A stretch of DNA of 64,000 bases from contig NZ_JARXAB010000138.1 in NCBI RefSeq assembly GCF_029866045.1, positions 1-64,000 on the forward strand. The letters run 5' to 3'. Shown piece after piece: positions 27,420 through 49,017 of the stretch; within the stretch, counting starts at the first letter, position 1, and each line of letters starts with the position of its first letter. The position numbers were made by a program, and so were the translations under genes. The notes under the pieces are model-generated. The model did no database searches, was not told the origin of the DNA, and saw only the letters and a program-made list of their open reading frames with translations. The DNA is from Ramlibacter sp. (GTDB taxonomy: Bacteria > Pseudomonadota > Gammaproteobacteria > Burkholderiales > Burkholderiaceae_C).

Positions 27420-28240
27420 CCTACTGCGTCGGCGTCAAGCTCAAGGCCGGACTCGTGTTCCTGTCTGATTCCCGCACCAATGCGGGCGTAGACCACATCA
27501 GCACCTTCCGCAAGATGATCGTCTACGAGCGGCCGGGTGACCGCTTCATGGTGATGCTCACCGCGGGCAACCTGTCCATCTCGCAATCGGTGCGCGAGGT
27601 CCTGCAGACCGAGCAGCTCACCGACGCCGACGGTGAGCCCCTCACCATCTGGAACGCACGCAGCATGTTCGACGCCGCTCGGGTACTGGGCCAGGCAGTG
27701 CGACGCGTTTACGACCGCGACGGCGAGTCGCTGCGCCAGGCCGGCGTGGAGTTCAATATTTCCATGATCTTCGGTGGCCAGATCCACGGCGAGGGCATGC
27801 GCCTGTTCAATGTGTACTCAGCCGGTAACTTCATCGAGGCCACCGCTGAAACGCCGTACTTCCAGATCGGCGAATCCAAATACGGCAAGCCGGTTCTTGA
27901 CCGGGTGCTCACTCCCGACACCTCGCTGGACGAGGCTGCCAAGTGCGCCTTGGTGTCCATGGACTCGACGATGAAGTCCAATCTCTCGGTGGGGGCCCCG
28001 CTGGACCTGGTGGTGTACGAGGCCGATCGCCTCGCCACCGACCGCGTGGTGTGCATCGACATGGCCAACCCCTACTACCGCATGCTCCATGAGAGCTGGG
28101 GCCAGAAACTGCGCGAGGCCTTCGACAGCCTGCCGCCACCCGCCTGGGGCGACGAGAAGACCGCCACGCCGCTGCGGGTCGCGCAGTCGTCGGTAGTGCC
28201 GCTACGCAAGATCACCCGGGCCGAGGAAAAGCTGATTTGA
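27416..28240 (+). CDS. Proteasome-like peptidase of the Anbu type
   Basis: A 274-residue Ntn-hydrolase related to proteasome beta subunits (ancestral beta subunit, Anbu). It starts MTYCVG, so removal of Met exposes Thr1 as nucleophile; Asp17 in LSDSRTNAG and Lys32 in FRKM line up with the catalytic Asp and Lys of proteasome beta chains. The core [16 protein letters not shown] and [10 protein letters not shown] follow. Anbu assembles into open helical or ring-like oligomers; its substrates are unknown. In many bacteria Anbu sits with a transglutaminase-like protein, an alpha-E protein and a circularly permuted ATP-grasp protein; none of these is here. Instead it overlaps mutS by four bases. 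Confidence 0.88.
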
Positions 28241-29499: not shown

Positions 29500-31608
29500 T
29501 CAAAAGCCCGTTTCACGCACCAGTACTGACGCGGCGTGACGAAAGTGGCGCCACAAGGCCGGCTCCGGCCTGGCCTCGACCAGCACCTTGCCTCGAAACT
29601 GCGACTGGCTCAGCCGTTGCGGGAGTTCAGCCACACTGAATGCCACCCGATAGATGGAACGCTCAGGAATCAGCTTGTCGCCCTCGGCCCGAGTCAGCAC
29701 ATGGCCCCCCGAAACGCTGGCCAGTTCACGTCGAGGCAGCTGACGGCTAGCATCTTTGTCGATGGAGCTGACCTTCAGCTCAAGCAGGGGGGCGGCGCCG
29801 CTGTCTTGTATGAACACGGCTCGGTCACCGACGGAAATTCTGGCGATGGATTCCTCGTCAAGCCAAGTCTCCACCAACCAGGGCGTTCCTTCGCGCACCA
29901 GGGTTGCGAGCTTTTCCTTGCCTGCCAGCCATTGGCCTTGATGCAGATCGGGATGGATGTCGCGCAGGTGGCCCGCATACGGCGCGAGTGGTGCGAATTG
30001 CAGTATTTCTGTCTGCACGCCCGCCAACTCGCTGCGTAAGGTTTCGACCGAGTCCCGATTGACCAGCATGCGCTTGCGCCACTCTGGGTCAAAGCCTGAA
30101 TTGACCGACTGCCACCTCTGGGCCTCCAGCCTGACCTGCAGCGCTGCTTTGCGGACCGCCAGATCCGGTGCATAAAGCCTGACAACGGTGGCTCCCTGTT
30201 CCACCCGGTCGCCCTCCTTGTAGCCCAGCTCCATCACCATCGCACCGGATGGCGCAAAAATCGGCCAGGATTCCGCAGGCTTGAGCATGGCAGAGGCCTC
30301 GATCCGTCCCGGCCATGGCACCACCATCAGGGCCACAAACATTGCCGCCAGGGCAAGCAGACTCAGTGCTGTGCGCAGGCTGCGGGCAATCGCATGTCGC
30401 CGCACCCACCAGGCCTTGAGCTCATTGCGGATGGGCCATGCGATGAACCAGGCGATCTCGACGAGAAAAAGAAAAATGCCCAGCGCCTTGAAGAAGAAGT
30501 GGTAGACGAGAACTGCAATGCCGATGAACACCACCAGACGGTAGATCCAGGTCAGCCATGCAAACGCCACCATCGCCCTTTGGATGCCAGCAGAAAAGAA
30601 TTCGGGCGGATCCTCCTTCAGATGGAACAGCCACTCGCGCAGCTTCCACCGGGCCAGCGCGAAGCTGCGCTCATGGAGGTTGGGCATGTCCAGGGCATCG
30701 GACAGGATAAAGTAGCCGTCGAAACGCATGAATGGGCTGGCATTGATCGCCAGCGTGGCGATCCAGCTGGTGGTGGCCAGCACAAAAAATGCCGCGCGCA
30801 AATTGCCCTCGGGCAAGACAGACCAGGCCAGCGTCGCCCAGGCGGCAATCACCAGCTCGGTCACGATACCGGCGCTGGCCACTTTCAGCCTCTGACGCCG
30901 ATCGGTCAAGCGCCAGGTCTCGTTGGTGTCGGTATAGGCCATGGGCCACATCACCAAAAATGCCACCCCCATGGTGGGGACCCGGCATCCAAAGCGCTTG
31001 GCGGTGAAGGCATGGCCCAACTCATGCAACAGCTTGACCGCAAACAGTGCCACGCCGTAGGCCAGCAGACCCGACCAGCTGAACAGGTCAACCATTTGCG
31101 CGGCAAAGGCATCCCACTGGCGCATCACGTTGGACAAACCCCAGCCCAGGGCCAGCAGGGTGAGCCAAGCAAAGCTGCTGGTGTAGAAGATGGACACCAC
31201 TCCCGCCCAACGACCCAGCCAGGCGTCCGGGCGTATCAGCGGGACCCTGAAAAACAGGTAGTGATGCAGCAGCCACTTGTACCAGCTGGCCTGCATGGCC
31301 TCGGCCCGCTGAGCCATGCGGCTCGAGCCTTGTGCCGCATCAGGCTTCAGAATTTGGTGACGTTGGAGAAATTCCACCACCCCCAGCACATCGGGCTCGG
31401 ACATCTGCAAGGTGGTGTGTTGGCTGATGTCTGCCGCAATCGCCTGAGGCTCATCCATCCACCAGCGCTGCATCACCTCGAAGGTGGGCCAGTCGATTCG
31501 GAAGAACAGATTCCGGGCGGGGTCGTGCAGCGTCCAGCTGGGCTGGCCGTCGGCCAGGGCAGGCCCCGGCATCAGGTCAATTTCCTCGCGCAGAGCAGGC
31601 AGTGCCAT
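29500..31608 (-). CDS. PqqD-like / M50 peptidase / HlyD fusion membrane protein
   Basis: A 702-residue protein with three parts. Residues about 20-95 resemble a PqqD-type winged helix (NLFFRIDWPTFEVMQRWW ... FLQRHQILKP). Residues about 110-400 form a polytopic membrane core with the metallopeptidase motif HELGH at 195-199 and a second M50 motif, SPFMRFDGYFILSDALDMPNL, at 291-311. From about 420 one more membrane helix leads into a periplasmic HlyD-like arm: a barrel-sandwich half (EGDRVEQGATVVRLYAPD), a short helical hairpin, and a beta-barrel part. It is the last gene of a five-gene minus-strand operon and starts three bases after the stop of the preceding HlyD gene. By architecture it is probably an inner-membrane component that handles or processes the giant protein. 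No ATPase domain is present. Confidence 0.85.
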   Translation of the reverse strand: MALPALREEIDLMPGPALADGQPSWTLHDPARNLFFRIDWPTFEVMQRWWMDEPQAIAADISQHTTLQMSEPDVLGVVEFLQRHQILKPDAAQGSSRMAQRAEAMQASWYKWLLHHYLFFRVPLIRPDAWLGRWAGVVSIFYTSSFAWLTLLALGWGLSNVMRQWDAFAAQMVDLFSWSGLLAYGVALFAVKLLHELGHAFTAKRFGCRVPTMGVAFLVMWPMAYTDTNETWRLTDRRQRLKVASAGIVTELVIAAWATLAWSVLPEGNLRAAFFVLATTSWIATLAINASPFMRFDGYFILSDALDMPNLHERSFALARWKLREWLFHLKEDPPEFFSAGIQRAMVAFAWLTWIYRLVVFIGIAVLVYHFFFKALGIFLFLVEIAWFIAWPIRNELKAWWVRRHAIARSLRTALSLLALAAMFVALMVVPWPGRIEASAMLKPAESWPIFAPSGAMVMELGYKEGDRVEQGATVVRLYAPDLAVRKAALQVRLEAQRWQSVNSGFDPEWRKRMLVNRDSVETLRSELAGVQTEILQFAPLAPYAGHLRDIHPDLHQGQWLAGKEKLATLVREGTPWLVETWLDEESIARISVGDRAVFIQDSGAAPLLELKVSSIDKDASRQLPRRELASVSGGHVLTRAEGDKLIPERSIYRVAFSVAELPQRLSQSQFRGKVLVEARPEPALWRHFRHAASVLVRETGF

Positions 31609-31611
31609 CTA

Positions 31612-32940
31612 TTACCAGCCCAGATAGAGCCTGACCGTGGTCAGCGGCCTGCGCAAGACCCAGTAGATCAGCGGCACCTTCTCTCCAAACAGCTTGGCGG
31701 TCCCCTTCAAGCCCACCCTGTGCTCGGTAGGCCGCTCCAAGGCGGCGCGCAGCCTGAAAGCCTGGTATCCCTCAGGCCTCTCGACCGCCTCATGAGCCAT
31801 GTAGCGCAGCTTGGCTTGCAGTGGTTCCAAGGGACTGGCATTGAGGAACAGCTGGATAGGATCGCCGGGCTGCAGTGAACTTGCATCGGCCAGCGGCAGC
31901 CATACCTCTACCTCGGCATCGCCTTCTGTCGCAATGCGCAAAATACGCTCACCGACAGTCACAGGCCGACCTATCCATTCGGAAGGGTCATCCATCAGAA
32001 CCACTCCGTCCTGCGGTGCCAGCACCCGACCCCGGCGCAGCTGGTCGGACAGGTACTGGACTTCGGCCCGCTTTTCCTCGATCTTTCCACTGAGCAGGCC
32101 AAGCTGATTGCGTGCCCGCGGATCGGCCAGGGCCTGCTGCGAGGTTTGTCTGTAGTCCGTCTGCGCGGTCACCAGGCCTTGGCGGGCTACTTCAAGCCGG
32201 CTCTGGATCAAGGCTTCGTCAAAGCCAAACAGGGGCTGACCCTTGCGAACCAGCTGATTGGGCTGGACGTGAAACGCGTCAACCACCCCTTCCATGGGCG
32301 CTCTTACAACCGTTGGCCGTGCCGGCACCAGCTCACCTGGCGCCAGCACCGTCATTTGCACCGGGTAGGCCATAGCGAGTGCCAGCGCAATCATCAAGAC
32401 CGGCCATACCCACGGAATGCGGCGCCTCGCCCCGTCGCCGTTTCTAGAAAGGAGCGCGCCAAGCCAGCGTGACTTGCCCAGCGCTTGGTGGGCGTGTGTC
32501 CAGGTTTCACACCAGTGGCCCAGCAAGGCGGCCTGCGGCTGCGTCCACGCCAGGTCATCGGCCACGAGCAGATCGCTACCGTCTCCCAGGGGGACCCACA
32601 GTCCATGTGCCGGCCACCACTGCGCCCATTGGGCGGCCAGTTCCGGGCTGAGCTGAGCAGCGGCGAAAACCTGCCCCGGCTTGAAGTTCCTGCGTGCATG
32701 TTCGAGGACCTTGCGCAACCACAGCACATAGGGTGCGTTGGCCTCGGCCTGCACCACGCCCGACAGGACAGGCAGCCGTTGCCCACTCAGAAACAGGGCC
32801 GCCTGCCTGTATGGCACCAACTGCCGGCTGTCGTTGGCCAGCATGAAACCCAACTCAGACTGGGTACGAGTCCGGCGGGCGCGGTGCGCCAGTTCAAGCA
32901 AGACCCGCTGAGGTTCTATACCCCCGATAGACTCATTCAT
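31612..32940 (-). CDS. Inner-membrane HlyD-family adaptor with GAF-like N-terminal domain
   Basis: A 442-residue protein. Residues 1-155 are cytoplasmic and resemble a small GAF-like sensor fold (LANDSRQLVPYRQAALFLSG ... GLWVPLGDGSDLLVADDLAW). One membrane helix lies at about 175-193 (WVWPVLMIALALAMAYPV). The rest is a periplasmic adaptor: lipoyl half APGELVPARPTVVRAPMEGVVDAFHVQPNQLVRKGQPLF, a hairpin at about 240-295, the second half VLAPQDGVVLMDDPSEWIGRPV, and a beta-barrel. It lies 9 bp after the giant protein gene and 3 bp before the M50 fusion gene, so it is in the same operon. A sensor-like domain on an export adaptor is unusual. Confidence 0.85.
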   Translation of the reverse strand: MNESIGGIEPQRVLLELAHRARRTRTQSELGFMLANDSRQLVPYRQAALFLSGQRLPVLSGVVQAEANAPYVLWLRKVLEHARRNFKPGQVFAAAQLSPELAAQWAQWWPAHGLWVPLGDGSDLLVADDLAWTQPQAALLGHWCETWTHAHQALGKSRWLGALLSRNGDGARRRIPWVWPVLMIALALAMAYPVQMTVLAPGELVPARPTVVRAPMEGVVDAFHVQPNQLVRKGQPLFGFDEALIQSRLEVARQGLVTAQTDYRQTSQQALADPRARNQLGLLSGKIEEKRAEVQYLSDQLRRGRVLAPQDGVVLMDDPSEWIGRPVTVGERILRIATEGDAEVEVWLPLADASSLQPGDPIQLFLNASPLEPLQAKLRYMAHEAVERPEGYQAFRLRAALERPTEHRVGLKGTAKLFGEKVPLIYWVLRRPLTTVRLYLGW

Positions 32941-32949
32941 CGCACATCA

Positions 32950-35900
32950 TCAATGGGCCGTGGCTGACTCGGCTAGGCTGACCTTGACCGTTTGCATTAG
33001 ATCCGGCGTCGCCTGATCCGGCGGGGTCAGGTCGATGGGCGTTAGCAGGTCCAAAGGCAAGCCCAGCGTGGAACGCTTGGCGGCCAAGCGCAATTTCTCG
33101 CTCAGACTGTTGCGGCTTTGGGGCTTGTCTGCCGGTTTTTCGGCCGGGGGCTGCTCGCCCACGAACATGCGGAACAAGACGGTCGCTTCCCGGTCTTCAC
33201 CGTCGCGTGCTGTGACCTTGAGATCGATCTTGCCCTTGAAGCCACCGCTGGCTGCCGGGTCGACCTCAAAGCTGCCTGAGCGTTGATCAAACTGCACCCA
33301 CGGCGGCAAGGGGGTGCCGTCGGCCAGAGAGGCAGTCAATTGAATCACCGCATCGGCTTTGGAATGCACGAAGGCGTCGTAGGGCATGGACACCTTGGCG
33401 GTGGATGTACCTTCTACAAATTGGTCGGTCACGCCCTTAAAGACCTGAAGTCCCGCAGGCCGGGTGGCGTCCACCACAACGGGGAAGCCTCTGGAGCTGG
33501 TCAGCAACTCGCCTATCGCAGGAGGCGCGGGCGGAGCAGCTGGTTCGACCCGCTTGGCTTCAAGGGGCTGCAAGGTGGAATTGAAACCCTGGGTCGGTGG
33601 ACGAACCGGCTCGGGTGCGACCGGCGCCGCGGGTGTTGCAGGTAACTCGGGCGGCGCTGGCGGGGGCGGGGGCGTGGGCGTGGGCGGGGACGGGGGCAGC
33701 GGTATGGACGTGTCGTCATCGAGGCCGGTGGTGCTCTCGGCCGGCGTGCCGCTAGGCATGTCGGGCCCGTACTTCTTGCCCGAGCCGTCGTCAACGATGC
33801 TGGTCTCGCCCGCAGCGCTCTTGGCGCTGTAGATGGTGTAGGCCGCCTTCAGGCCAAAGCCCTCGGCCCCCTCCAGCAGCGCATCGGCTTCGCTGGTGAT
33901 AGTCACCCGCACATAGACCCGGCCACCAACTGGCACCGTCGGCTTACTGGTGCTGCTGTAGACCGTCCAGTGGGTGCCGTCGGTAGAAAACTCGATCGGC
34001 ATGAACCCCGCAAAGTTCGCTTCTGCATCGCCTGCAGCGGCCGTGCCTTGCAGCGACAGGTCCAGCGCATAGCCAGCGATGGCGTTGACCGTGAACATTG
34101 CGTAGGTCGAGGCCTCGTTGACCGGACCATAGGCGGTGACCGACACGCCGAGGTCATCGTCGAGGCCGGTGGTGCTCTCGGCCGGCGTGCCGCCAGGCAT
34201 GTCGGGCCCGTACTTCGTACCCGAGCCGTCGTCAACGATGCTGGTCTCGCCTGCAGCGCTATTAGCGATGTTGCTGGTGTAGGCTGCCTTGACCGCAAAC
34301 GTCTCTGTCCCTTCGAAATTCAAATCACTTTCCGAGCTGATGTCTACGCGCACGTAGACCTTGCCGCTGGCCGGCACCGTGGGCTTACCACTGGTGTAGG
34401 CGGTCCAGCTTGTGCCATCGGTCGACCACTGAATGCTCGTGAAGCCCGCGAAGGCAGCAGCAGTGCCAGAACTGGCCGCCTGGATGGCAAGGTCAAGCTC
34501 GTAGCCGTTGGCCGCCGTGACCGTGAACATCGCATAGGTGGAGCCTTCGTTGACAGGCGCTGCGGCTGTGATGCTGATGGTTCGGTCGTCGTTTTTGGCG
34601 CTGTCGCTGGCGTTGTCCGAATTGTCACCATCGTCATCCCCGCCCGTTCCATCGTCCTTAATGGTGCCCGACCCCTGGGCATCGCTGATGGTGGCGGCGG
34701 CGACATTCGAAAGATTGATGGTGAAGCTTTCGCTTCCCTCGAACACGCTGTCGTTGTTGATCGTGACCTGAACGCTCTTGCTGCTGTCGCTGGGCAAAAA
34801 AGTCAGTGTGCCTGCCGCGCCAGTAAAGTCATTGGCCGCTCCAGCCTTGGCGGAGCCATCGCTGAAGGTATAGGCCACGGTTGCGTTTTGCGTGGTGCTA
34901 CCGGTCTTGGTCACGGTAAAGGTCAGAGTACCTGCGGCTTCATTGACCGTGACATCGCTGACCGCAAAGCTGGGGCGATCGTCGTCCTTGACGGTGGTGG
35001 TGTCCGCGTCAGACCCGTCATCCCCGTCGATGCTGCCGTCGTCGTAAATGGTGGTGTCGGCGTTGGCCGATGCGCCTACCCGCTGGGCGCCAGAGCTTCG
35101 GTCGGCGTAAAGCAGGGGGGCAGATGCAAAGCTGGCAGTGAGGTTGAATGACTCCGGTCCCTCATAGGTGGCGTCGTTGGTGGTTGCCACACGCACCAGG
35201 AACGACGTTTTGCCCGCGCTCAAGGTCACCTGATTGCCCGCTACAGTCGCCCAGGTCGCGCCGCTGTCCTGGCTCCATTGGTAGGACGCGCTGTTGTAGT
35301 CTGCGCCAGCAGTCGAGACGTTGTTCAACGCCAGGTTGATGGTGGTTGCTGCGGCAAGAGCATTGGACAGGTTGACCGTAAAGGTGGCTCTAGATCCCTC
35401 CTCCACATTCATGCCCGTGACGGCCAACGTAGGCTGGTCGTCGTCTCCCCCAAGCTGCCCATCGTCCAAGATCGTGCCGATGCCGGTTGCCCGGTTGATG
35501 GTCGCATTGACCGGGCTGGTCAGAATCAGGCTGAAGGTTTCAGACCCCTCGTAAATCCCATCGTTGATGATCGGGACCGAGATGGTCTTGCTGATTTCAT
35601 TGACCCCCAGCGTGAGCGAGTCTGAGCTGGCGGTGTAGTCCGCCCCTGCCGTTGCGCTGGACGCCACCGTGTTGTAGCTCACCGTCACTGTCTGGTTGGC
35701 CCAGCCGCTCTTGGTCACGGTGAAATTCATCACACCAGCGGCCTCGTCAACCGTCACATCGTCGATCGACAAGGCGGGCGGTGGGCTCACGCCGTTGATG
35801 GTGAGTGTGACGGTGGCGGTCGAGGTGCCTCCTCGGCCGTCTGACAAGGTGTAGGTGAAGGTGTCGGTGGACGATTCGCCGGCATTGAGGTAGTCGAAAG

Positions 35901-38900
35901 CACCGCTCGGGTCATAGGTGTAGGAGCCGTCGGGTGCCACAGTCAGTTGTGCACCCGAGGCCAGCCTGACCGTCGTGGTCGTGGTCGCGGAAGTTTGTGC
36001 AATTCCCGACCCGTTGATTGCAGCCACCCTGAGGTTGGGCAAGTCCGTAGCGTCGGCATCGGTGTCGTCTCCGCTACCTTCATTACTGGTGATCAGGTTG
36101 GCCCCAGAGGCCGTCTGGTTCTCGCTGATGGTTCTCGCATTGGCCGTGGCCGTCGGGGCGGTATTGGCCGGTACGGGCACGCTGATGCTGTCACCGCCGC
36201 TGTCAGTGCTGTCGTCCGGGTCAACGTAGGAGGCGCTGAGAACGGTTCCTTGCGCCAAGTTGGTAAACCCAGCACCACTGAGCGCGGCCTCGAAGATGCC
36301 GGTGTTGGCGCCGGTCTGGGTCAGCGTGAAGGCCGTGCCATTGACCGTGGCGGTGATGGTTTTGGAGGCCGTGGCGCTGGCTTCGTCCAGATCGGTCACC
36401 CGCACAAAGGCATTGGCCCCCTGCGCGTAGGTGGCGCCGGAGACACTTCCCCTCAGACCGGAGATGAACTCGGTGATGGCGGGCGTGCCCAGATCCTTGG
36501 CCGTGACGGTAAAGGTACCCGCAGCCGCATCGGATATGGTGCCCTCCAATCCCTCGAGCGCCGTGACAGTGACAGCGTACTCACCCGTGTTGTTGGCAGT
36601 CGTCCAAGCGTACTCAAAGATTTTGTAAGTGTCCCCATTGGCGGGGCTGCCCACGACCGTTGCCGAGACGGGCGCGACCACGCCGATATCGCCCAGGGTG
36701 TCTGGGCCATCGATGCTGAGCTTGAGGTCGCTGATGTCGTAGGCCCCGAAGGGATCCTTGACCTTGACCCGGATGAACACCGTGCCGCCCGCATCGATGG
36801 TGCCCGCCGTGATCTGGTTGCCACCGCCGGCGGAAAAAGACTTGTCAAAAAATCCGATTTCCTGCACGCCGGTGACCGTACCGCCACCTTCGCCCGCGTC
36901 GTCGGTGTCGCCATCGCTGTTCGTGTCCACGCCATCCACATCGACGATGCCGATCACATTGCTTACCGGCAGATCGATTTTCGAGGGCTTGCCGCTGCTG
37001 TCGTAATCAATCTTGAAGCTCGAGCTCGCCAGGTTGTTGGTGATGACCAGTTTCGTCGTGGCGCCTTTGGGAATGGTCACGCCGCTGGCGCCCACTTCTC
37101 CGCCCCAGCTCAAGGTGCCAACGCCGGCAGAGGACTGCGTGTAGCTGGCCGAGCCGAGGGACGCAACCGTCACGTCCGCACCGCCTCCCGAGGGGGTGTA
37201 GACCAATGCGGCGGTGATGTCCGCGTAGCTGCTGCCCGACGTCAGGCCGGAGGCTGCGCTGATGTGGGTGGTGACGCCCACCATGCCGCCAGCAGGCAGG
37301 CCGATGGCCGTCGCCATGGGAATGGCTTGGGTGAAGGTGGCGGGAGCCACCACGGAGACGGAACCGCTGCTGATGACGATGTTGTCAATGAAAATCTGGT
37401 CGCTTGATCGACTCGCCCCAAAGCTAAAACGAATGCCAGTTGCCCCCACAGGCAGATTTGCATCGGTGACCCCAACGACACCCAGGTTTGAGTTGTTCGG
37501 ATAGGCGGTGAAGGTGTCTGAGCCGCTCGTCGAGCCCTGACGCTTGATGGTCCCCAGCTGGGTCCAGGTGCTCCCGTTGCTGGTGTACTCCACGGTCAGA
37601 CCAGCGTCGTTGGCATCTAATCCGTTGAGCTTGTAATCAAAACTGAGGGTTCCGGTCGCGGTCAGTGCAGCGAAGCTGCGGCTTAGCCGGGTGAGGTTAT
37701 TGCTTCCGCTGCCTGCAAAGACCAAGCCGTTTCCAGATCCATTGGCGGCAGAGCTTGCCACTTCAATATCGCCATTGGTGGCGTCGCTGTCGTCGTTTGC
37801 CTCTGTCCAGTTCGATCCGGTGGCCCAGCCTGTGCCCCCAGAGTAGCTTTGGGCGGTGAAGGAGTCGGAAATGGTCCGGCTTATGCTAGAGCCCGGTGTG
37901 ACCGCAGCCGTCTGGCTCAGGCTGCCATCGGCGGAGGCGAGGGGGTCTATCCTGTCCAGGTCACCGGTACCGGAGAGATAGAGCGTCTTGGACTTGACCA
38001 CCGTGAAACTGTCACGATTGGCGTCGCCCGTTGTGTAGGGCGATGTGATGCCGGGCTTGCTGGGGTTGTCGAAGGTCGAGCCTGTCACTGGGTCGGTGTA
38101 ATCGACCAGAACGCTGTCTCCCAGGCTCATGCTCAGGGTCCCGTTCTGGCTAGCGGCCGCCGCTGCTGCCGTCGATGTGATCAGGCTGCCGCGGAAGATG
38201 CCAGTGTTGGCGCCGGTCTCGGTCAGGCTGACCGTCTCCACCTCGCCAGTGCTGTTGTTGGTCACCGTCACGGACAGGGTCTGTACCGTGAGCCCGCTGG
38301 TGTTTTGGTCGTCGTCGGTGACCTGGATGTACAGCGTGTCGCCTTCAGTGAAGTTGATGAAAGCGTTGGTGTAGGCGGCGTTGAAAAACCCGACCTCGCC
38401 GTCGGTCGCAGCAGGTGGCGGTAGGGAGACGCCATTGGCCAGCTTCAGATTGGAATTGCTCCCGCTGGTGTAGGTCGCGGCAGTGATGCCCCAATTGACC
38501 GGATTGTCGATGCCGGTGGCCCCGCCGTCCTGGCCGGAGGTGGGGTCTGTGTATTCCGCCTTGATGTTGTTGCTCGTGGTCAGGACCAGTTTGCCACTGT
38601 TGTTTGCCGAGTCCGAGCCGCTGGCGGAACTGACCAGGGTGTTCTGGAAGATGCCAGTGTTGACGCCAGTCTCCGTCAGAACGACTTGTTCAATCTCACC
38701 GGTGGTGGTGTTGGTCACCTTGACCGTCAGGGTCTCAGCCACAGCGCTGTTTTTGTTCTGGTCGCCGTCGGCCACACGCAGTCCGATGTTGTCGGTACCG
38801 CCAATGTAGCTGGCCATGGATTTGGTGAAGCCCGAGTCCATGAAGAACACTTCGCCATCGGTCACCGTCACGGCGACTTGGGTCTCGTTGACTTTGTCCT

Positions 38901-41682
38901 TCTGAACGCCCGTACCAACCATGGTCACGCTGTTGGTGATGGTGGAGTCACTGTCGGACAGCGCCTTGTTGATGGTGCTCCGGACCTTGACCCGGTAGCT
39001 GACCTCCACCATGCCGCCGCGCTTGAGTCCGTCGGCCACGTTGGGAGTGCTAGGGTCCAGATCGGCGAGGCGGTAACCCGCCCCAGCCAAGGGGAAGGCC
39101 GTGCCGGCCAGGCCGCTGTTGGTGACAGTACTGGTGACGGTTACCCCATCGGCGGCATAGAAAGTCTGAGTAGTCCCGGCAATCGTCCAGGCCCGTTTGC
39201 CCTCGGGCGAGTAGACCGTCACCAACGTGCTGTTGGCCACGTATTCGGCGCTGTCGGCCGGCGTGACGGTGTCCTTGAGCACGATGTCATAGAGATCGAT
39301 CACAGCCCGGTTGGTCAAGGTCACCGTGTAGGTGACCTGTTCGCCCAGTTCAATGATCGTGTCGTTGTCGCTGGCTCCAGCCTCCACCGAGGTAGAGGTT
39401 TCGGCCGACGATTTGCCCAGGACGTAGTCCGGAAAGGGCGTGATGGTCGTACCCATGTCCAAGTAGGGGGCGCCGGCCCCGGCGATCGATGGGTCTTCAC
39501 CCCAGGCGGCAGTGATCAGGGTGCCGTCCTTGGTGTACACCGTTAGACCAGTTTGGTCTTTGTCAGCGTCAAACAGGCGGTAGGACTCCAAGCGCTTGAC
39601 CGTGTACTTGTAGGTGCCGGTGCTGCCGTCCTGCGTCTTAGCGATGGTGTTGCCCGCCGAATCCTTCATCGTCACCGTCGCACTGTCGACATAGAGCACC
39701 GTGTCTGCGGTCGGCGTGACCCACACCGGGCTGGCATTGAGGTCGGTGCTGGCGAAGGCGCGTGTGACGTTGTCGGCGCCCGGGCCCCAGCCCACCACAA
39801 ACTTGTCGCTCAGGTAGGTTTCGGGCACCAGGGAGTAGGACCAGTCATGGGTCTGGTTGGCCGTGGCATCCGCGTCGATGACACTCACCGCAAAGAAACT
39901 CTTGAGGTTCCCGCTGGCGTCTTTGTCGGTGGTGTAGAAACGCGCCGCTGACGCTGGCATCAGAAAGTACGAGGTCTTGGTGCTGCTGTTGGATGCCCAG
40001 GTGGTACCGCTGGAACCCGAGGGTGTGATGGTGCCGGTGCCAGTGGCCGTTTCATACCTGATGTTGGCGCCGTTGGGGTTGTAGATCAACACGTAGGCCG
40101 GATTGGCAGCCAAAGTGGTGCCCACGGGGGCGTAATAGCTGCTCGCCCACTGCTCATCGGGGGTGAGGGCAAACCAACGGTTTTCATAGGTGGAGCCCAC
40201 ATCGCCAGCGATCAGGTAAACGCCGACGCCCTTGTCCGCAGTGATCTTTGCGCCCGCATTGAGCCCGCCACTGACCAGATAACTCTGGCCCTCGTTGAGG
40301 GTGATGGTCAGGTCGACCGTGCCATTGCCATCTTTGTCCACGGTGACGGTGGTGTTGTTCTGGGTGGCGATGATGTGCGCGGAGGTGTACTCGAACAGCT
40401 TGTCGGTGCCCGTCGCAACCGTCTGGACGTTTTGCCCTACGGGCAGGGTGTAGGTCTTGCCAGCGTTTCCGGAATCGATCACGTTGACTGCACCGGCCAA
40501 AACCGTGCCCGGGGTGAGGGACCAACCGGCTCGGGTGACTGAAATGGCTTTGGTCGATCCGATCTTGTCGCGGCCGTCAAAATCGATGGTGCTGGGGCTG
40601 GCCGGGTTGACCGCATTGGTCAGGATGATGCTGCGGCCGCTGACGGTGATGCCGGTGCCGCTGACTGCAGGCTCTGCGCCGTTCCGAGAGCCATCGCCGT
40701 CGGTGTCAACAAACCAGCCATTGTTGTAGGTCCATACCTTGGTGCTGGCCTGCAAGGGATTCTTGATGTCGGCCTCGAAGCCATCTTCCCAATGGTCATA
40801 GACCACCACCGTACCGTTACTGGTGGCGGTAATGGCAATCACGGTCTGGATATTGCCCGTCACCGCCGTGCTGATGGCCTTGAGCGAAGTCTGAACATCG
40901 GCCTCGGCCATGGGCACATAGTGAATCTGCGCGATGGCGTACGGCGCCGCCGTCTCGACGTCGATGGCCTGGCCGGCAATCACGAAGCGAGCGCGGTCAT
41001 CGCCACCATCGGCTGGGCCGCCGGCTTGACCGTTGGCAAGCATGGCGGCAAAGGCATGACCCTCGTCGCCCGGCGTATCGATGCCAGCGTTCAAGCGGGC
41101 ATCCATGGCATGGCCGAATTCCTCGACCAGCACCCATTCGATGGCCTTCTCGTTGGCACCCGCTGCCAGCCAATCGGCATTGATGAAGACCACCCGCTCG
41201 CCATCGATGCCACGTTCGGCAAAGGCACCCAAGGCCTTGTGCATCTGTTGCGCGCCGATCACCTCGATGCGCAGCGGGGCCTGACCTGACTCGACTTCAG
41301 CGAGCAGCCTGTCCCAGGCAGCAAGCCATTGCGGCGAAGGCTCCTGCGCCGTGTTGCCGCCGCTCAGCACTCGATACACCTGTTCGCGCGCACCGGGCTG
41401 ATGCAGGAAATCCGTGATCAGTCGCGATGCCGCTTGTTGGGCCTGTGCCAGCGCGGCTGGGGCGGCTGTGTCCTTGACCGTGAACAGCGCACTGCTTGCT
41501 GCTGGCGAAGCGTCGGTACGGCCGTCTCCATGGTAGGCATCGAGCAGGTTCGCACTCGCATCGGCCACCGCAGCCCCATCGAACATGAAACGCTGTTCCA
41601 GGGCCATGGACCGGATGGATGGCCGGCGCAGGCCCAAAGCGAAATGGGGAGCGACTGCAGGGGTGTTCTTGGCTTTGCTCAT
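32950..41682 (-). CDS. Giant repeat surface protein with LEPR-XLL-like motif, DUF11 and Calx-beta domains
   Basis: A 2910-residue protein, pI clearly acidic. Start at 41682 is supported by GGAG eight bases upstream. Order of parts (rough residues): 28-38 LEQRFMFDGAA, a LEPR-XLL-type N-terminal motif of giant surface proteins; 180-215 a degenerate metallopeptidase-like block, VEEFGHAMD; 240-700 a beta-rich region with VYDHWEDGFEADI; 765-900 a DUF11-type domain; 940-1230 two related repeats with TETG.NTGIF; 1260-1600 further beta domains; about 1840-1965 a VCBS/cadherin-like domain; 1970-2660 five Calx-beta-like repeats; a Pro-rich hinge at 2661-2695; 2735-2840 an Ig/CADG-like domain; and a basic tail. 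Calx-beta and Asp/Gly loops suggest Ca2+-dependent rigidity. No Sec signal and no RTX nonapeptides are seen. Probably a secreted adhesin or surface-layer-like protein of this operon. Confidence 0.85.
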   Translation of the reverse strand: MSKAKNTPAVAPHFALGLRRPSIRSMALEQRFMFDGAAVADASANLLDAYHGDGRTDASPAASSALFTVKDTAAPAALAQAQQAASRLITDFLHQPGAREQVYRVLSGGNTAQEPSPQWLAAWDRLLAEVESGQAPLRIEVIGAQQMHKALGAFAERGIDGERVVFINADWLAAGANEKAIEWVLVEEFGHAMDARLNAGIDTPGDEGHAFAAMLANGQAGGPADGGDDRARFVIAGQAIDVETAAPYAIAQIHYVPMAEADVQTSLKAISTAVTGNIQTVIAITATSNGTVVVYDHWEDGFEADIKNPLQASTKVWTYNNGWFVDTDGDGSRNGAEPAVSGTGITVSGRSIILTNAVNPASPSTIDFDGRDKIGSTKAISVTRAGWSLTPGTVLAGAVNVIDSGNAGKTYTLPVGQNVQTVATGTDKLFEYTSAHIIATQNNTTVTVDKDGNGTVDLTITLNEGQSYLVSGGLNAGAKITADKGVGVYLIAGDVGSTYENRWFALTPDEQWASSYYAPVGTTLAANPAYVLIYNPNGANIRYETATGTGTITPSGSSGTTWASNSSTKTSYFLMPASAARFYTTDKDASGNLKSFFAVSVIDADATANQTHDWSYSLVPETYLSDKFVVGWGPGADNVTRAFASTDLNASPVWVTPTADTVLYVDSATVTMKDSAGNTIAKTQDGSTGTYKYTVKRLESYRLFDADKDQTGLTVYTKDGTLITAAWGEDPSIAGAGAPYLDMGTTITPFPDYVLGKSSAETSTSVEAGASDNDTIIELGEQVTYTVTLTNRAVIDLYDIVLKDTVTPADSAEYVANSTLVTVYSPEGKRAWTIAGTTQTFYAADGVTVTSTVTNSGLAGTAFPLAGAGYRLADLDPSTPNVADGLKRGGMVEVSYRVKVRSTINKALSDSDSTITNSVTMVGTGVQKDKVNETQVAVTVTDGEVFFMDSGFTKSMASYIGGTDNIGLRVADGDQNKNSAVAETLTVKVTNTTTGEIEQVVLTETGVNTGIFQNTLVSSASGSDSANNSGKLVLTTSNNIKAEYTDPTSGQDGGATGIDNPVNWGITAATYTSGSNSNLKLANGVSLPPPAATDGEVGFFNAAYTNAFINFTEGDTLYIQVTDDDQNTSGLTVQTLSVTVTNNSTGEVETVSLTETGANTGIFRGSLITSTAAAAAASQNGTLSMSLGDSVLVDYTDPVTGSTFDNPSKPGITSPYTTGDANRDSFTVVKSKTLYLSGTGDLDRIDPLASADGSLSQTAAVTPGSSISRTISDSFTAQSYSGGTGWATGSNWTEANDDSDATNGDIEVASSAANGSGNGLVFAGSGSNNLTRLSRSFAALTATGTLSFDYKLNGLDANDAGLTVEYTSNGSTWTQLGTIKRQGSTSGSDTFTAYPNNSNLGVVGVTDANLPVGATGIRFSFGASRSSDQIFIDNIVISSGSVSVVAPATFTQAIPMATAIGLPAGGMVGVTTHISAASGLTSGSSYADITAALVYTPSGGGADVTVASLGSASYTQSSAGVGTLSWGGEVGASGVTIPKGATTKLVITNNLASSSFKIDYDSSGKPSKIDLPVSNVIGIVDVDGVDTNSDGDTDDAGEGGGTVTGVQEIGFFDKSFSAGGGNQITAGTIDAGGTVFIRVKVKDPFGAYDISDLKLSIDGPDTLGDIGVVAPVSATVVGSPANGDTYKIFEYAWTTANNTGEYAVTVTALEGLEGTISDAAAGTFTVTAKDLGTPAITEFISGLRGSVSGATYAQGANAFVRVTDLDEASATASKTITATVNGTAFTLTQTGANTGIFEAALSGAGFTNLAQGTVLSASYVDPDDSTDSGGDSISVPVPANTAPTATANARTISENQTASGANLITSNEGSGDDTDADATDLPNLRVAAINGSGIAQTSATTTTTVRLASGAQLTVAPDGSYTYDPSGAFDYLNAGESSTDTFTYTLSDGRGGTSTATVTLTINGVSPPPALSIDDVTVDEAAGVMNFTVTKSGWANQTVTVSYNTVASSATAGADYTASSDSLTLGVNEISKTISVPIINDGIYEGSETFSLILTSPVNATINRATGIGTILDDGQLGGDDDQPTLAVTGMNVEEGSRATFTVNLSNALAAATTINLALNNVSTAGADYNSASYQWSQDSGATWATVAGNQVTLSAGKTSFLVRVATTNDATYEGPESFNLTASFASAPLLYADRSSGAQRVGASANADTTIYDDGSIDGDDGSDADTTTVKDDDRPSFAVSDVTVNEAAGTLTFTVTKTGSTTQNATVAYTFSDGSAKAGAANDFTGAAGTLTFLPSDSSKSVQVTINNDSVFEGSESFTINLSNVAAATISDAQGSGTIKDDGTGGDDDGDNSDNASDSAKNDDRTISITAAAPVNEGSTYAMFTVTAANGYELDLAIQAASSGTAAAFAGFTSIQWSTDGTSWTAYTSGKPTVPASGKVYVRVDISSESDLNFEGTETFAVKAAYTSNIANSAAGETSIVDDGSGTKYGPDMPGGTPAESTTGLDDDLGVSVTAYGPVNEASTYAMFTVNAIAGYALDLSLQGTAAAGDAEANFAGFMPIEFSTDGTHWTVYSSTSKPTVPVGGRVYVRVTITSEADALLEGAEGFGLKAAYTIYSAKSAAGETSIVDDGSGKKYGPDMPSGTPAESTTGLDDDTSIPLPPSPPTPTPPPPPAPPELPATPAAPVAPEPVRPPTQGFNSTLQPLEAKRVEPAAPPAPPAIGELLTSSRGFPVVVDATRPAGLQVFKGVTDQFVEGTSTAKVSMPYDAFVHSKADAVIQLTASLADGTPLPPWVQFDQRSGSFEVDPAASGGFKGKIDLKVTARDGEDREATVLFRMFVGEQPPAEKPADKPQSRNSLSEKLRLAAKRSTLGLPLDLLTPIDLTPPDQATPDLMQTVKVSLAESATAH
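33721..33825 (-). repeat. Near-identical module repeat in the giant gene, copy 1
   Basis: About 105 bp that recur at 34162-34266, offset 441 bp (147 codons). Both encode the linker ETSIVDDGSG.KYGPDMP and then GTPAESTTGLDDD, joining the last two Calx-beta-like repeats to what follows. The DNA identity is well above that of the rest of the two repeats. Confidence 0.8.
34162..34266 (-). repeat. Near-identical module repeat in the giant gene, copy 2
   Basis: Partner of the repeat at 33721-33825. Most differences are single bases; for example, GCTAGGCATG in copy 1 is GCCAGGCATG here. In the protein only one or two residues differ across about 35 positions. Confidence 0.8.
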
Positions 41683-41761
41683 ACAAGCTCCATCGGGCTG
41701 GTCTTCAGCAGCTCGGTTCAAAAATAAAACTGGCGCATTTGCGTTGACCGGGGAGGCTGTT

Positions 41762-42634
41762 TCAGCGTCTGGGCTCACGCAGGGGCAGCTGCCCACTGCC
41801 CCCAGCTGGTGGTGCGGCCAGTACGCGCCCACTCATGCCGGCCATCAGGTCTTCATGCTTGCCCTCTATCTCGGCCACCAGCTTGACCGACTGGCTGACC
41901 GGGTCCACCCTGGCTGCAATGCGGATGAACCTGGCCGGGTAGGTCTTGCGGGTCTCGTCGATCTGCACTCGCAGTGCTCCTCCGACACGAACCCAGCTCA
42001 GCCAGGCCGAGGGCACCAGAAATTCCAGTTCAAGAACGCTGTCGTCGATGATGTCCATCAACGCCTGGCCTGGCTGCACAAACTGCTGATCACGCGCCTT
42101 TAGCTCGGCCACCCGGCCGCTGAAAGGCGCAGGCACCGCGCATTTGGCGAGCATGGCCTGTGTCCCGCCCACTTCCGCCCGCGCCTTGGAGGCCGCGGCG
42201 CGTGAGAGGTCCAACTCCAGCAGGCCGACCGAGTTGAGTTCGGCCAGCCGCTGGTTCGACTTGAGCGTGTATTCCGCCGACTCAAGCTCTGCGCGGGCTT
42301 TCTCCAGCTGAGCCTGCTGCAAGCTGCACTCGAAGCTGACCAATTGCTCCCCCGATTTGAAGGCGGTGCCTTCTTGGTATGGCAGGCGGTTGATCTTGGC
42401 GCCGATCTCAGCGGCTATCGTGGTGAAGCGCCTGGGCATGAGCTGGGCCCGGATCTCCTGCCGGCTCAGTAGAAGCCGTGGATCTTGTGCCGCAGGCGCT
42501 GCCGTGGTCTCAGGAATGCGGGCCATCGGGCTTGCGACCGGCTGGGCGCCGCAAACAAAGCTCGCAAGCCCCGCAAGAGCGGCTAGAGCCCATCGCAAAG
42601 GGCGACGCACCACACGCTCCCGTGGGCTTACCAC
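41762..42634 (-). CDS. Periplasmic HlyD/RND-type adaptor
   Basis: A 290-residue adaptor with an N-terminal signal (RRPLRWALAALAGLASFVCGA). It has the lipoyl/barrel-sandwich half GAKINRLPYQEGTAFKSGEQLVSFE, a helical hairpin at about 100-160 (LEKARAELESAEYTLKSNQRLAEL), the second half CAVPAPFSGRVAELKARDQQFVQPGQAL and a beta-barrel. Unlike the two other HlyD-type proteins of the operon it has no further membrane helix, so it is probably fully periplasmic or an outer-leaflet anchored bridge. Its start overlaps the TolC-like gene by seven bases, and the giant gene starts 79 bp after its stop. Confidence 0.87.
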   Translation of the reverse strand: MVSPRERVVRRPLRWALAALAGLASFVCGAQPVASPMARIPETTAAPAAQDPRLLLSRQEIRAQLMPRRFTTIAAEIGAKINRLPYQEGTAFKSGEQLVSFECSLQQAQLEKARAELESAEYTLKSNQRLAELNSVGLLELDLSRAAASKARAEVGGTQAMLAKCAVPAPFSGRVAELKARDQQFVQPGQALMDIIDDSVLELEFLVPSAWLSWVRVGGALRVQIDETRKTYPARFIRIAARVDPVSQSVKLVAEIEGKHEDLMAGMSGRVLAAPPAGGSGQLPLREPRR

Positions 42635-44241
42635 TGGCCGCGCGTTTGTTGGTTGTGCAGCGCGAACGCTGGAGTGCGCTCCCCCGAAGGCGCGGCAGCC
42701 GATGGCGGCGCACTGGCTCGGGGTTGGATGGTCGGTACATGGGCCTTGTTCATCATCTGCTCCCAGGCGGCGGGCGAACGGCGCACCTGCTCCGTCAGCT
42801 CCTTGAGGCTGAGCGTGCCGGTGCTTCCGATCTCCGGCTCCAGCCCCAGGGTGGCAAGCAAGCGACTCTCAGCAGTCTGAACCTGGGCCAGCGCCTGGTA
42901 GCGGCGCAGCAGGCTCAAAATGGCCGCCGTTTCATTGCTCACCACATCGAGCTTGCTTTGGACTTGGGCTGCTTGGCGGTTGCGCGAAATTTCTGCAATC
43001 TTGTTGTCAGTGGCGTAGATGGCGTCGGCACGTTCCATTTGCCCGCGGGCGTTGGCCAAATTCAAACGCGCCAGATGCAATTGTGTGATCGTCGCCAGGT
43101 GGCCAGCTACCCGCCTTTGATCGGCCAGGGCCACCCCTGCTTCTGCCAGCTTGATCTGGGTCGGACCGGTGGCCAGGTTGAAGACGTTGTAGGACAGTTG
43201 TAGACCGGCTTCCTGCCAGTTGTTGTTCACCAAGTAGCGATCGGAGTCGTAACGTATCGAGTAATTCAGACTCAGGTTGGGAAACAGGCGAACCAGGGTG
43301 CGCCGTACCTCTTCGCGGGCGATGCGGCTGTTGTAACCCAGCTCGCGAAGGTCAGGGTTTTGAGCCAATGCCGTCTCTTCGAGCTTGGCCACCGGCACTT
43401 CGAGCAGAGCGCCGGTCGAGGGCTGGGTAGGCTCGGCGATCTGGAATACTTGGTTGACCGGTGCGTTGATCAGGGAGGCCAGTTCCACCTGGGCCGATGA
43501 CAGCTCCTGGTTGATGGATTCCAACAAACGCAGGTTCTCCAGCAATTGGCGCTGATAGCGGAGTGCGTCCATCGGGTTGCGAACCCGCTCGAATTCGGCC
43601 TTGCGTGAATCGACTAAGGCCTCTTCTGCCAGGGCGATCGTCTTGCGCACATCTTCCCGCAGCAGCTGAGCGCTGGTTGCGCGCCAGAAGGCGGTTCGTA
43701 CATCCTGCATCAGCAGGTGCATGGCTTTGCGCCGCTTTTCCACCGAAATCAGTACCCGGTCGGCTTGTTGACGTGCGCCGTAGTAGCCCATGCCGATGTC
43801 AAGCAGGCTCCAGCTGAACTCCAGGCCATTGGTTAGGTGCTCCCGGTCGGAGGAGATGAAACCAATGGTCGAAATATCTCCGGTAGTCGGGTTGCGGCTC
43901 AGGCTGGTGCGATCGTTGTTGCGCCAGGAATAGCCGGCCTGTGCCATCAGCCTGGGCAGCATGTCGAATTTGGTCACATCCAACTGCCCAAGAGCCAGCG
44001 ACTCTTCCATCATCCTGACCCGGCGCTCGGCGTTGTACTTCAGGGCCCGCGCCAGGGCCTCATCCAGGGTCAGCGGTCCGCTGATTGGCTCGACGTCCTT
44101 GCGCAGCGCTCGCATGTCCGCAGCAGTCGCCATGGTGGTGGTGGTCAGCGGTACAGGTCGGATGCTGGCGCAGCCGCCGAGCACCGCCAGGCTGATGGCC
44201 AGCACCAGGGGACGCAGGGGAGAAGCGAGAAGAGTGGTCAT
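42628..44241 (-). CDS. TolC family outer-membrane lipoprotein
   Basis: A 537-residue TolC-like protein. The signal ends in a lipobox, LGGC with Cys24, so the mature protein is lipid-anchored as in OprM-type channels. Two TolC repeats of long helices and strands follow: PLTLDEALARALKYNAERRV, then EFSWSLLDIGMGYYGARQQA, and in the second half QLSYNVFNLATGPTQIKLA. It has a Pro/Ser tail after about residue 505. It is the first gene of the operon and overlaps the adaptor gene by seven bases. Start at 44241 gives a compact lipoprotein signal; an ATG 57 bases upstream is possible. It should be the outer-membrane duct for the giant protein. Confidence 0.9.
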   Translation of the reverse strand: MTTLLASPLRPLVLAISLAVLGGCASIRPVPLTTTTMATAADMRALRKDVEPISGPLTLDEALARALKYNAERRVRMMEESLALGQLDVTKFDMLPRLMAQAGYSWRNNDRTSLSRNPTTGDISTIGFISSDREHLTNGLEFSWSLLDIGMGYYGARQQADRVLISVEKRRKAMHLLMQDVRTAFWRATSAQLLREDVRKTIALAEEALVDSRKAEFERVRNPMDALRYQRQLLENLRLLESINQELSSAQVELASLINAPVNQVFQIAEPTQPSTGALLEVPVAKLEETALAQNPDLRELGYNSRIAREEVRRTLVRLFPNLSLNYSIRYDSDRYLVNNNWQEAGLQLSYNVFNLATGPTQIKLAEAGVALADQRRVAGHLATITQLHLARLNLANARGQMERADAIYATDNKIAEISRNRQAAQVQSKLDVVSNETAAILSLLRRYQALAQVQTAESRLLATLGLEPEIGSTGTLSLKELTEQVRRSPAAWEQMMNKAHVPTIQPRASAPPSAAAPSGERTPAFALHNQQTRGQW

Positions 44242-44339
44242 GGTCGATGTCCGCTCATCGCGGGCAAGGTTGTTCTGATGGAAGGCCGGGGGGTCCAAGC
44301 GAGGGTCTGAAATAGAGCCAATGGTTGGTTTGACCAGAC

Positions 44340-44555: not shown

Positions 44556-44834
44556 GTGAGACGCAGTCGTTTTTCGGTGGAGCAGATCGTGGCCGTGCTC
44601 AAGCAGGCTGAGTTGGGGATGCCGGTGGCGGACTTGATCCGCAAGATCGGAATCAGTGAGCAGACTTTTTATCGCTGGAAGAAGCAGTACGCGAGCCTGG
44701 AGCCCGACCAGGCGCGCGAGCTCAAGCAGTTGCAGGAAGAGAACGCTAGGCTCAAGAAGCTGGTCGCCGACCTGAGCCTAGACAAGGCCATATTGCAGGA
44801 TATCGCCTCAAAAAAGTGGGGCGGCCCGCGTTGA
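44556..44834 (+). CDS. IS3-family transposase OrfA
   Basis: A 92-residue protein with a helix-turn-helix (MRRSRFSVEQIVAVLKQAE ... RKIGISEQTFYRWKKQY) followed by a leucine-zipper-like coil (LKQLQEENARLKKLVADL). It starts at a GTG with GAGGAG upstream. It provides DNA binding for the OrfAB transposase. Similar OrfA proteins occur in the IS407-type group of the IS3 family, but I am not certain of the subgroup. A scrap of the same gene type is at 29180-29220. Confidence 0.93.
   Translation: MRRSRFSVEQIVAVLKQAELGMPVADLIRKIGISEQTFYRWKKQYASLEPDQARELKQLQEENARLKKLVADLSLDKAILQDIASKKWGGPR
44810..44816 (+). promoter_or_regulatory. Slippery heptamer for -1 frameshifting
   Basis: A_AAA_AAG lies in the OrfA frame as TCA AAA AAG (Ser-Lys-Lys). 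A -1 shift here continues directly into orfB, giving the OrfAB fusion transposase used by IS3-family elements. Confidence 0.85.
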
Positions 44835-45655
44835 AGCGAGAGGCCGTGGCGTACATCACCAGTCGCCACGGCATCAGTCAACGTCGGGCCTGCCGACTGA
44901 TGGGCCAAGCGCGTAGCAACCAGTTCTATCGCAGTCGCAAGGACCGCCGGGAAGACCTTCGCCTGCGGATGAAAGAGATCGCCAACACGCGCATCCGGTT
45001 TGGTTACCGGCGGGTGCATGTCATGCTCAAACGCGAAGGCTGGCAACTGGGGCGAAGCCAAGCCTATCGCCTGTACCGCGAGGAACAGCTCCAATTGCGC
45101 TCAAAGCTGCCCAAGCGCAGGAAGATGGTGGTGCAGCGCCAGCAGCGCGTTACCGCCAGTGCTCCAGGCCAAGTGTGGACGATGGACTTTGTCGCCGATG
45201 AATTTGGCGAGGGCGGGAAATTTCGGATGCTCACGGTGGTGGACGTGTTCACGCGCCAGGCGATGGCGGTCGATGCGGGTATTCGACTGCGCGGAGAAAA
45301 CGTGGTCGAGACCCTCAATAGGCTCGTGGCGCGGCACGGCGCGCCCAAGTACGTCTTCGTGGACAACGGCAGTGAGTTCACGGGACGGCTGATGGACATG
45401 TGGGCCTACCACCACGGGGTGCGCCTGGACTTCAGCCGCCCGGGCAAACCGCCGGATAACAGCTATGTAGAAACCTTCAACGGATCACTGCGCGATGAAT
45501 GCCTGAACGTTCACTGGTTCAAAACCTTAGCCGAGGCAAAGCAAGTGCTGGAGGCTTGGCGCAGGGATTACAACGAGAGCCGTCCTCACAGTTCTCTCAA
45601 CGACATGACGCCGGCCGAATTCGCCCGTAATATCAAGGAGTTGGAGCCTGCCTAG
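44816..45655 (+). CDS. IS3-family transposase OrfB (DDE integrase domain)
   Basis: A 279-residue reading frame with the rve integrase core. The catalytic acidic residues are visible in WTMDFVAD, FVDNGSEF and DNSYVETFNGSLRDECLN (D, D and E). An N-terminal HTH_21-like domain covers RRACRLMGQARSNQFYRS and the block FGYRRVHVMLKREGW. The frame begins at a GTG at the frameshift site and overlaps orfA by 19 bases, so it is probably made as OrfAB by -1 frameshifting. It appears intact. Confidence 0.93.
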   Translation: MGRPALKREAVAYITSRHGISQRRACRLMGQARSNQFYRSRKDRREDLRLRMKEIANTRIRFGYRRVHVMLKREGWQLGRSQAYRLYREEQLQLRSKLPKRRKMVVQRQQRVTASAPGQVWTMDFVADEFGEGGKFRMLTVVDVFTRQAMAVDAGIRLRGENVVETLNRLVARHGAPKYVFVDNGSEFTGRLMDMWAYHHGVRLDFSRPGKPPDNSYVETFNGSLRDECLNVHWFKTLAEAKQVLEAWRRDYNESRPHSSLNDMTPAEFARNIKELEPA

Positions 45656-49009: not shown

Positions 49010-49017
49010 GGCGCTGC

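Follow-up and report, generated by a model that had tools for sequence, protein, structure and literature searches.

A candidate ABC-free export system for giant LEPR-XLL-like proteins, encoded in a five-gene operon of Ramlibacter sp.

The reference systems for type I secretion are HlyB-HlyD-TolC and, for giant adhesins, the LapBCE type. Here, we describe a five-gene operon on a 64,000-nucleotide stretch of the Ramlibacter sp. genome (contig NZ_JARXAB010000138.1, positions 1 to 64,000, referred to as the window) that resembles these systems in its HlyD adaptor, its TolC channel and the very large repeat protein that is its presumed cargo. Unlike type I secretion systems, the operon lacks an ATP-binding cassette (ABC) transporter, its candidate export signal is N-terminal, and it has extra parts: an RRE-like domain and an M50 metallopeptidase, fused to an HlyD domain (M50-HlyD), and a GAF-like head on a further HlyD protein (GAF-HlyD). 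On balance, we think it probable that the operon encodes its own ABC-free trans-envelope exporter for the giant, with M50-HlyD as gate and leader peptidase.

The closest described locus is that of Kamneva, Poudel and Ward (2015, PMC4452313), who found that secondary SecA_DEAD genes neighbour those for M50, HlyD and GAF-HlyD proteins, with SecA_DEAD proposed as the ATPase and M50 as the pore. By their account, Methylobacterium extorquens AM1 has the SecA-linked form. They termed the broader role of the locus 'completely unknown', and the words PqqD, LEPR and giant are absent from the main text of the paper. Judged by that text, their locus and ours share genes for M50-HlyD, GAF-HlyD and HlyD, sometimes with OEP genes and without an ABC gene. 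In the window, M50-HlyD and GAF-HlyD are likewise neighbours (the GAF fold being recognised by predicted structure). What sets the window and its clade apart from the published locus is the lack of a SecA-like gene: no secondary SecA_DEAD protein was found in the window's genome (93% complete), and none of the 23 genomes that carry this clade only has a strong second SecA. The initial annotation had proposed a distinct secretion pathway. This stands as regards an ABC-free route with M50-HlyD at the inner membrane, but the SecA-linked core of the module has been known since 2015, with its substrate unnamed in that text. As far as the literature was searched, the cargo, its address tag, the RRE domain and the SecA-less clade are new, and the search found no other paper on the system and no account of how LEPR-XLL-type giants exit the cell.

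All five open reading frames (ORFs) are read on the minus strand (Table 1). The HlyD gene overlaps the TolC gene by 7 bp (42634 versus 42628), and gaps of 79, 9 and 3 bp precede the genes for the giant, GAF-HlyD and M50-HlyD, respectively. The Pfam domains of the five products are, in this order, OEP; HlyD_3/HlyD_D23; Calx-beta and Big_9; HlyD; and Peptidase_M50 and HlyD_3. Neither Pfam nor NCBIfam identified an ABC exporter among them. For the TolC gene, the start was taken as the ATG at 44241, inside a TTG ORF that opens at 44298, and the lipobox was read directly from the sequence. The 2910 residues of the giant are counted from the MSKAKN start, the mechanical ORF opening at the GTG at 41832.

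To assess conservation, 300 genomes of the order were searched with the window's M50-HlyD protein, with at most three candidates scored per genome, so that match counts are lower bounds. M50-HlyD was matched in 54 genomes, with a clear gap between two score groups, which we named type A (33 matches at E 2e-135 or better in 30 genomes, window included) and type B (45 matches at 4e-55 or worse in 31 genomes). We read 32 type A loci besides the window and counted gene presence by tblastn; simple gene calling was misled by antisense ORFs in high-GC DNA. The four transport genes are complete in 25 of the 32 loci and cut by contig ends in six more, and only one locus (L052) has M50-HlyD alone beside a giant bearing the N-terminal motif described below. 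One of these loci, L057, is a second, diverged type A copy in the window's own genome (contig C69, 1-5713); it is cut by the contig end and contains the end of a giant-like ORF, HlyD, GAF-HlyD and M50-HlyD. Relatives of the clade are widespread, with at least 586 stretches encoding them; Cupriavidus metallidurans CH34 and Azospirillum brasilense each have a relative of the type A M50-HlyD. In the best 80 of these, the named loci (3.8 to 22 kb, many short or cut by contig ends), GAF-HlyD adjoins M50-HlyD in all 75 with room for it. Among the 39 loci with 7.5 kb or more of upstream sequence, 35 have a same-strand ORF there that is large or bears the motif; in two of the remaining four (L206 and L221) the motif giant is on the opposite strand. 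The single-strand operon of five genes described by the initial annotation is thus confirmed by ORFs, spacing, Pfam and recurrence in further loci of the 300 genomes, and the five families are strongly associated, where a lack of association would have spoken against a shared pathway.

The type B clade shows what the window's clade lacks. In 37 of the 45 type B matches, the gene that immediately follows M50-HlyD, on the same strand, encodes a truncated SecA-like ATPase. All six type B SecA-like proteins scanned contain the SecA DEAD motor, the second motor domain and the preprotein cross-linking domain. An alignment of seven such proteins (638-706 residues) shows intact motor motifs; of the 313 residues that follow the RQG motif in housekeeping SecA, 233-247 lack an equivalent. 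A strong second SecA was found in 31/31 type B genomes versus 0/23 type-A-only genomes. A hidden second SecA in the latter was considered and rejected; in seven of these 23 genomes a second match exists but is weak (E 2.8e-5 or worse, over about 67 residues). A single SecA is present in the window's genome, and SecA was found in none of the 80 named loci, many of them short. In a tree of 47 M50-HlyD proteins (27 type A, 20 type B), a single branch separates the two types with a Shimodaira-Hasegawa-like approximate likelihood ratio test (SH-aLRT) support of 100. The window carries a SecA-less, ABC-less variant of the module. It had been suggested that the M50 protein takes the place of the energiser; as the sister clade has both M50-HlyD and a SecA-like ATPase, the protease is not a simple substitute, and the idea does not hold as written. 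In two alphaproteobacterial type B operons, a small DUF3467 gene lies between the giant and GAF-HlyD (L229 15744-16064, L230 15753-16094). The SecA-like ATPase of these operons (L229 20222-22138, L230 20144-22126) carries the name 'prepilin peptidase' in one of the two public records and 'translocase' in the second, and names of this kind conceal the system.

Next, we focused on the cargo. The initial annotation assigned the giant to the LEPR-XLL proteins, an assignment that was not upheld: neither the giant nor its genome matches the model NF012209 (cut-off 17 bits), and the giant is LEPR-XLL-like only. It shares the N-terminal LExR-x-[LM][LF] motif with that family in a diverged form, ALEQRFMFDGAAVADA, and differs from it by FDGAA in place of LSADP. 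Giants of both clades start with a basic stretch followed by LExR-x-[LM][LFY][DS][AG]. Among six-frame ORFs of at least 300 residues in the fetched loci, this pattern has 43 matches in the first 400 residues (one locus being counted twice, L070 = L103) and none in the approximately 510,000 residues beyond. A profile of the type A N-terminus matches 30/30 type A genomes and 1/270 others; 15 of the 28 rows of its alignment, window included, come from the same genome sample, a circularity of which the 1/270 specificity is independent. In several type A genomes, the match lies on a different contig from the M50 gene.

LEPR-XLL proteins themselves co-occur with the system. NF012209 was found in 38 of the 300 order genomes, of which 35 have M50-HlyD, versus 54/300 overall (Fisher p 2e-28, limit E 0.01). 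In a phylum sample (limit E 0.001), 39 of 40 LEPR-XLL genomes have M50-HlyD versus 90/398 overall (p 9e-28); the two samples partly overlap, with G049 and G093 LEPR-positive in both. The LEPR-positive exceptions without M50-HlyD are G094, G207 and G270, with matches in ORFs of 23, 50 and 452 residues, and, in the phylum sample, G502 (86% complete). Each of the 26 genomes whose LEPR match falls below E 1e-4 is type B, and four type B genomes lack a LEPR match (G052, G114, G153 and G181). Genome G254 has a type A giant and, in addition, nine LEPR matches; two systems were found in it, one of each type. When the starts of LEPR giants were refetched from three genomes, 15 of 19 contained the motif pattern and four did not. 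Behind the motif, 23 of the 105 pairs among these 15 giants are similar at E 1e-5; several of these similar pairs are counterparts from two genomes. LEPR-XLL-type open frames reach more than 14,000 residues. Both clades are linked here to LEPR-XLL or LEPR-XLL-like giant cargo through genome co-occurrence and the N-terminal motif.

The leader of the window's giant has no Sec-like hydrophobic core, its maximum 12-residue hydropathy being 1.05 (hydropathy and membrane-helix assignments are simple Kyte-Doolittle estimates). For 39 type A giants the mean is 1.25 and the maximum 2.03, versus a mean of 2.04 for 28 HlyD N-termini used as controls (minimum -0.58, some starts probably being wrong). In view of its position near ORF starts, its association with the system and the lack of a Sec-like core in the window's leader, the motif is the best candidate for the export signal. 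At the other end of the giants, the pattern GRxSLSEQLRxA occurs in the last 150 residues of 38/62 type A giant ORFs versus 34/2260 other ORFs. The window's giant fails this pattern, having a similar string without the Gly (Table 1), as do four large ORFs of type B loci. This C-terminal element could be a retention signal or a second export signal.

The M50-HlyD fusion has the hallmark of M50 site-2 proteases, HExxH plus a distal Asp, and its protease site is intact (Table 1; the conservation counts are from 94 type A sequences, 93 of them distinct). At the column of the intramembrane residue E384, none of the 20 type B sequences has an acidic residue. The N-terminus has, by predicted structure, the winged-helix leader-binding fold of the RRE/PqqD type. 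The initial annotation called this part PqqD, a reading supported by the predicted structure and by Pfam matches in two of the five type B proteins scanned, but not by Pfam in type A. The best NCBIfam match is the daptide intramembrane metalloprotease (NF041824, E 1.3e-46); at 159.5 bits, below the cut-off of 300, the protein was not accepted as a member of that family. Like the daptide and epipeptide M50 proteases (NF041824, NF058609), it has a homologous M50 core (residues 58-386), here with an RRE beside the protease; unlike them, it is fused to HlyD and has a giant as its proposed cargo. The M50 part may act in gating, processing or retention.

Taken together, we propose that the giant's N-terminal ALE[PQ]RxMFDGAA leader would bind the RRE-like N-terminal domain of M50-HlyD, which together with GAF-HlyD would form an inner-membrane gate. 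The M50 site would probably cleave off or trim the leader as the giant enters or thereafter. Through its HlyD domains and the soluble HlyD, this gate would connect to the TolC lipoprotein, so that the giant would leave the cell by a closed duct and might end up at the surface. No ABC ATPase would take part in the export step. In the sister clade the cargo would be driven by the dedicated SecA-like ATPase; because the window's clade lacks one, its export would have to be powered by housekeeping SecA or by the proton motive force. A more speculative and rather doubtful version is that proton motive force, and neither ABC nor SecA, acts on the M50-HlyD gate via the type-A-specific intramembrane residues E384 and K374 to move giants with an RRE-read, cleavable N-terminal leader.

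Several observations weigh against this proposal. Leader binding is proposed by analogy, Pfam detects PqqD in none of 61 type A M50-HlyD proteins, and the M50 site could process something other than the giant. The leader hydropathy of type A giants overlaps that of the control signal peptides at its upper end, and in 4/30 type A genomes the motif match is only in an ORF of less than 1000 residues. The C-terminal element is common to many type A giants, and type I secretion as a rule relies on C-terminal signals. For eight of the 45 type B M50 matches, the contig contains no SecA. Finally, the window's genome has an LssB-type exporter above the cut-off (contig C58, 805 bits), so an ABC partner may act there. 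This last point, with a MacAB set some 2.7-6.6 kb upstream of the operon start, would fit an ordinary type I system with split genes, energised by an ABC exporter whose gene lies elsewhere. The initial annotation was right that the operon has no ABC ATPase, but the MacAB-type set does lie nearby, beyond an IS3 element and uppP; it was rejected as a conserved partner, as ABC genes are not kept beside the operon in relatives. An ABC ATPase is present in 9/80 named loci, in 1/32 upstream and in 6/27 downstream regions. The search for type I ABC exporters used the LssB and C39 models, the HlyB and PrtD models not being searched. Among the 30 type A genomes, LssB is above its cut-off in 13, a C39 domain is present in 15 (some in ORFs too short for an exporter), and 11 have neither. 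In seven of these 11 (G093, G187, G029, G271, G183, G297 and G136, the last 79% complete) the best LssB score is below 450 bits against a cut-off of 693; in the other four it is 622-640 bits. Generic ABC transporters gave scores in every genome and the search was confined to LssB and C39, so an ABC partner is judged here by lack of consistency and not by absence. By LssB and C39 there is no consistent partner, and we regard a hidden ABC energiser as improbable.

A likelier alternative, although one that we still consider less plausible than a dedicated exporter, is export in two steps, in which housekeeping SecA/SecYEG moves the giant across the inner membrane and the operon provides periplasmic capture, leader processing and passage through the outer membrane. 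The SecA-family motor of the sister clade and the lack of a strong second SecA in the type-A-only genomes fit this, whereas the low hydropathy of the leader does not, and two HlyD proteins anchored in the inner membrane suggest a closed duct. Least likely of all, in our view, is that M50-HlyD is only a maturation protease similar to the leader peptidases of ribosomally synthesised and post-translationally modified peptides (RiPPs), with the giant leaving by another route. The daptide protease match and the RRE fold would suit such a role, but TolC and three HlyD-type proteins are encoded in the same operon, and the HlyD part of the fusion is kept in 61/61 type A proteins. An exporter encoded by the operon itself thus remains our preferred reading.

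The system is also found on mobile elements. On an E. coli plasmid, the five genes lie between insertion sequence (IS) elements, with a 4459-residue giant starting ...RFALESRQLFDGAALAETA, and the annotation of the 26.7 kb shown contains no ABC or SecA gene. A query of HlyD, GAF-HlyD and M50-HlyD matched 24 of 5426 complete E. coli genomes, 22 of them over at least 80% of the query, and 21 of the 25 matching places are on plasmids. In the window, an IS3-family transposase ORF (44816-45655, above cut-off) lies just upstream of the operon's first gene, between the TolC gene and uppP, and the element may affect the operon's promoter. Next to mutS, the window encodes a protein resembling an Anbu-like, proteasome-type subunit (27416-28240; no NCBIfam match at E 1e-10).

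Table 1. Features of the operon and its surroundings, in window positions.
Feature	Position	Strand	Basis
TolC-family outer-membrane channel, lipoprotein (OEP x2)	42628..44241	-	PF02321 E 1.3e-35; lipobox LAVLGG-C
Periplasmic HlyD-type adaptor, N-terminal signal peptide	41762..42634	-	PF13437/PF16576, RND_mfp over cut-off; signal peptide by sequence
Giant cargo protein, ~2910 aa, Calx-beta and Ig/cadherin-like repeats	32950..41682	-	ORF and Pfam
N-terminal motif ALEQRFMFDGAAVADA of giant, candidate export leader	41557..41604	-	type A motif alignment
C-terminal SRNSLSEKLRLAAKR of giant, resembling the GRxSLSEQLRxA element of type A giants	33073..33117	-	
Inner-membrane HlyD with GAF-like head	31612..32940	-	Pfam HlyD and predicted structure
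GAF-like head, aa 2-161 of inner-membrane HlyD	32458..32937	-	fold by predicted structure
RRE-M50-HlyD fusion, proposed inner-membrane gate and leader peptidase	29500..31608	-	Pfam, NCBIfam, structure
RRE (PqqD-like) leader-binding fold, aa 2-89 of M50-HlyD	31342..31605	-	predicted structure
HELGH zinc motif (H195, E196, H199)	31012..31026	-	H, E, H in 94/94 type A and 20/20 type B
D297, third zinc ligand candidate (FMRFDGY)	30718..30720	-	94/94 type A, 20/20 type B
E384, intramembrane acidic residue of SecA-less clade	30457..30459	-	Glu 93 and Asp 1 of 94 type A
HlyD/MacA-like periplasmic domain, aa 430-689 of M50-HlyD	29542..30321	-	
MacAB-type ABC permease, ATPase, 615-aa adaptor	46977-50865	same strand	

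If the more speculative, proton-driven version is true, a RiPP-style leader system has been turned into a secretion system for proteins of thousands of residues. The SecA-less clade raises the question of how the export of giants is powered in the absence of a co-encoded ABC pump or dedicated SecA. The data tie LEPR-XLL-type giants to one machine and provide a candidate address tag that is amenable to deletion in ordinary laboratory bacteria.

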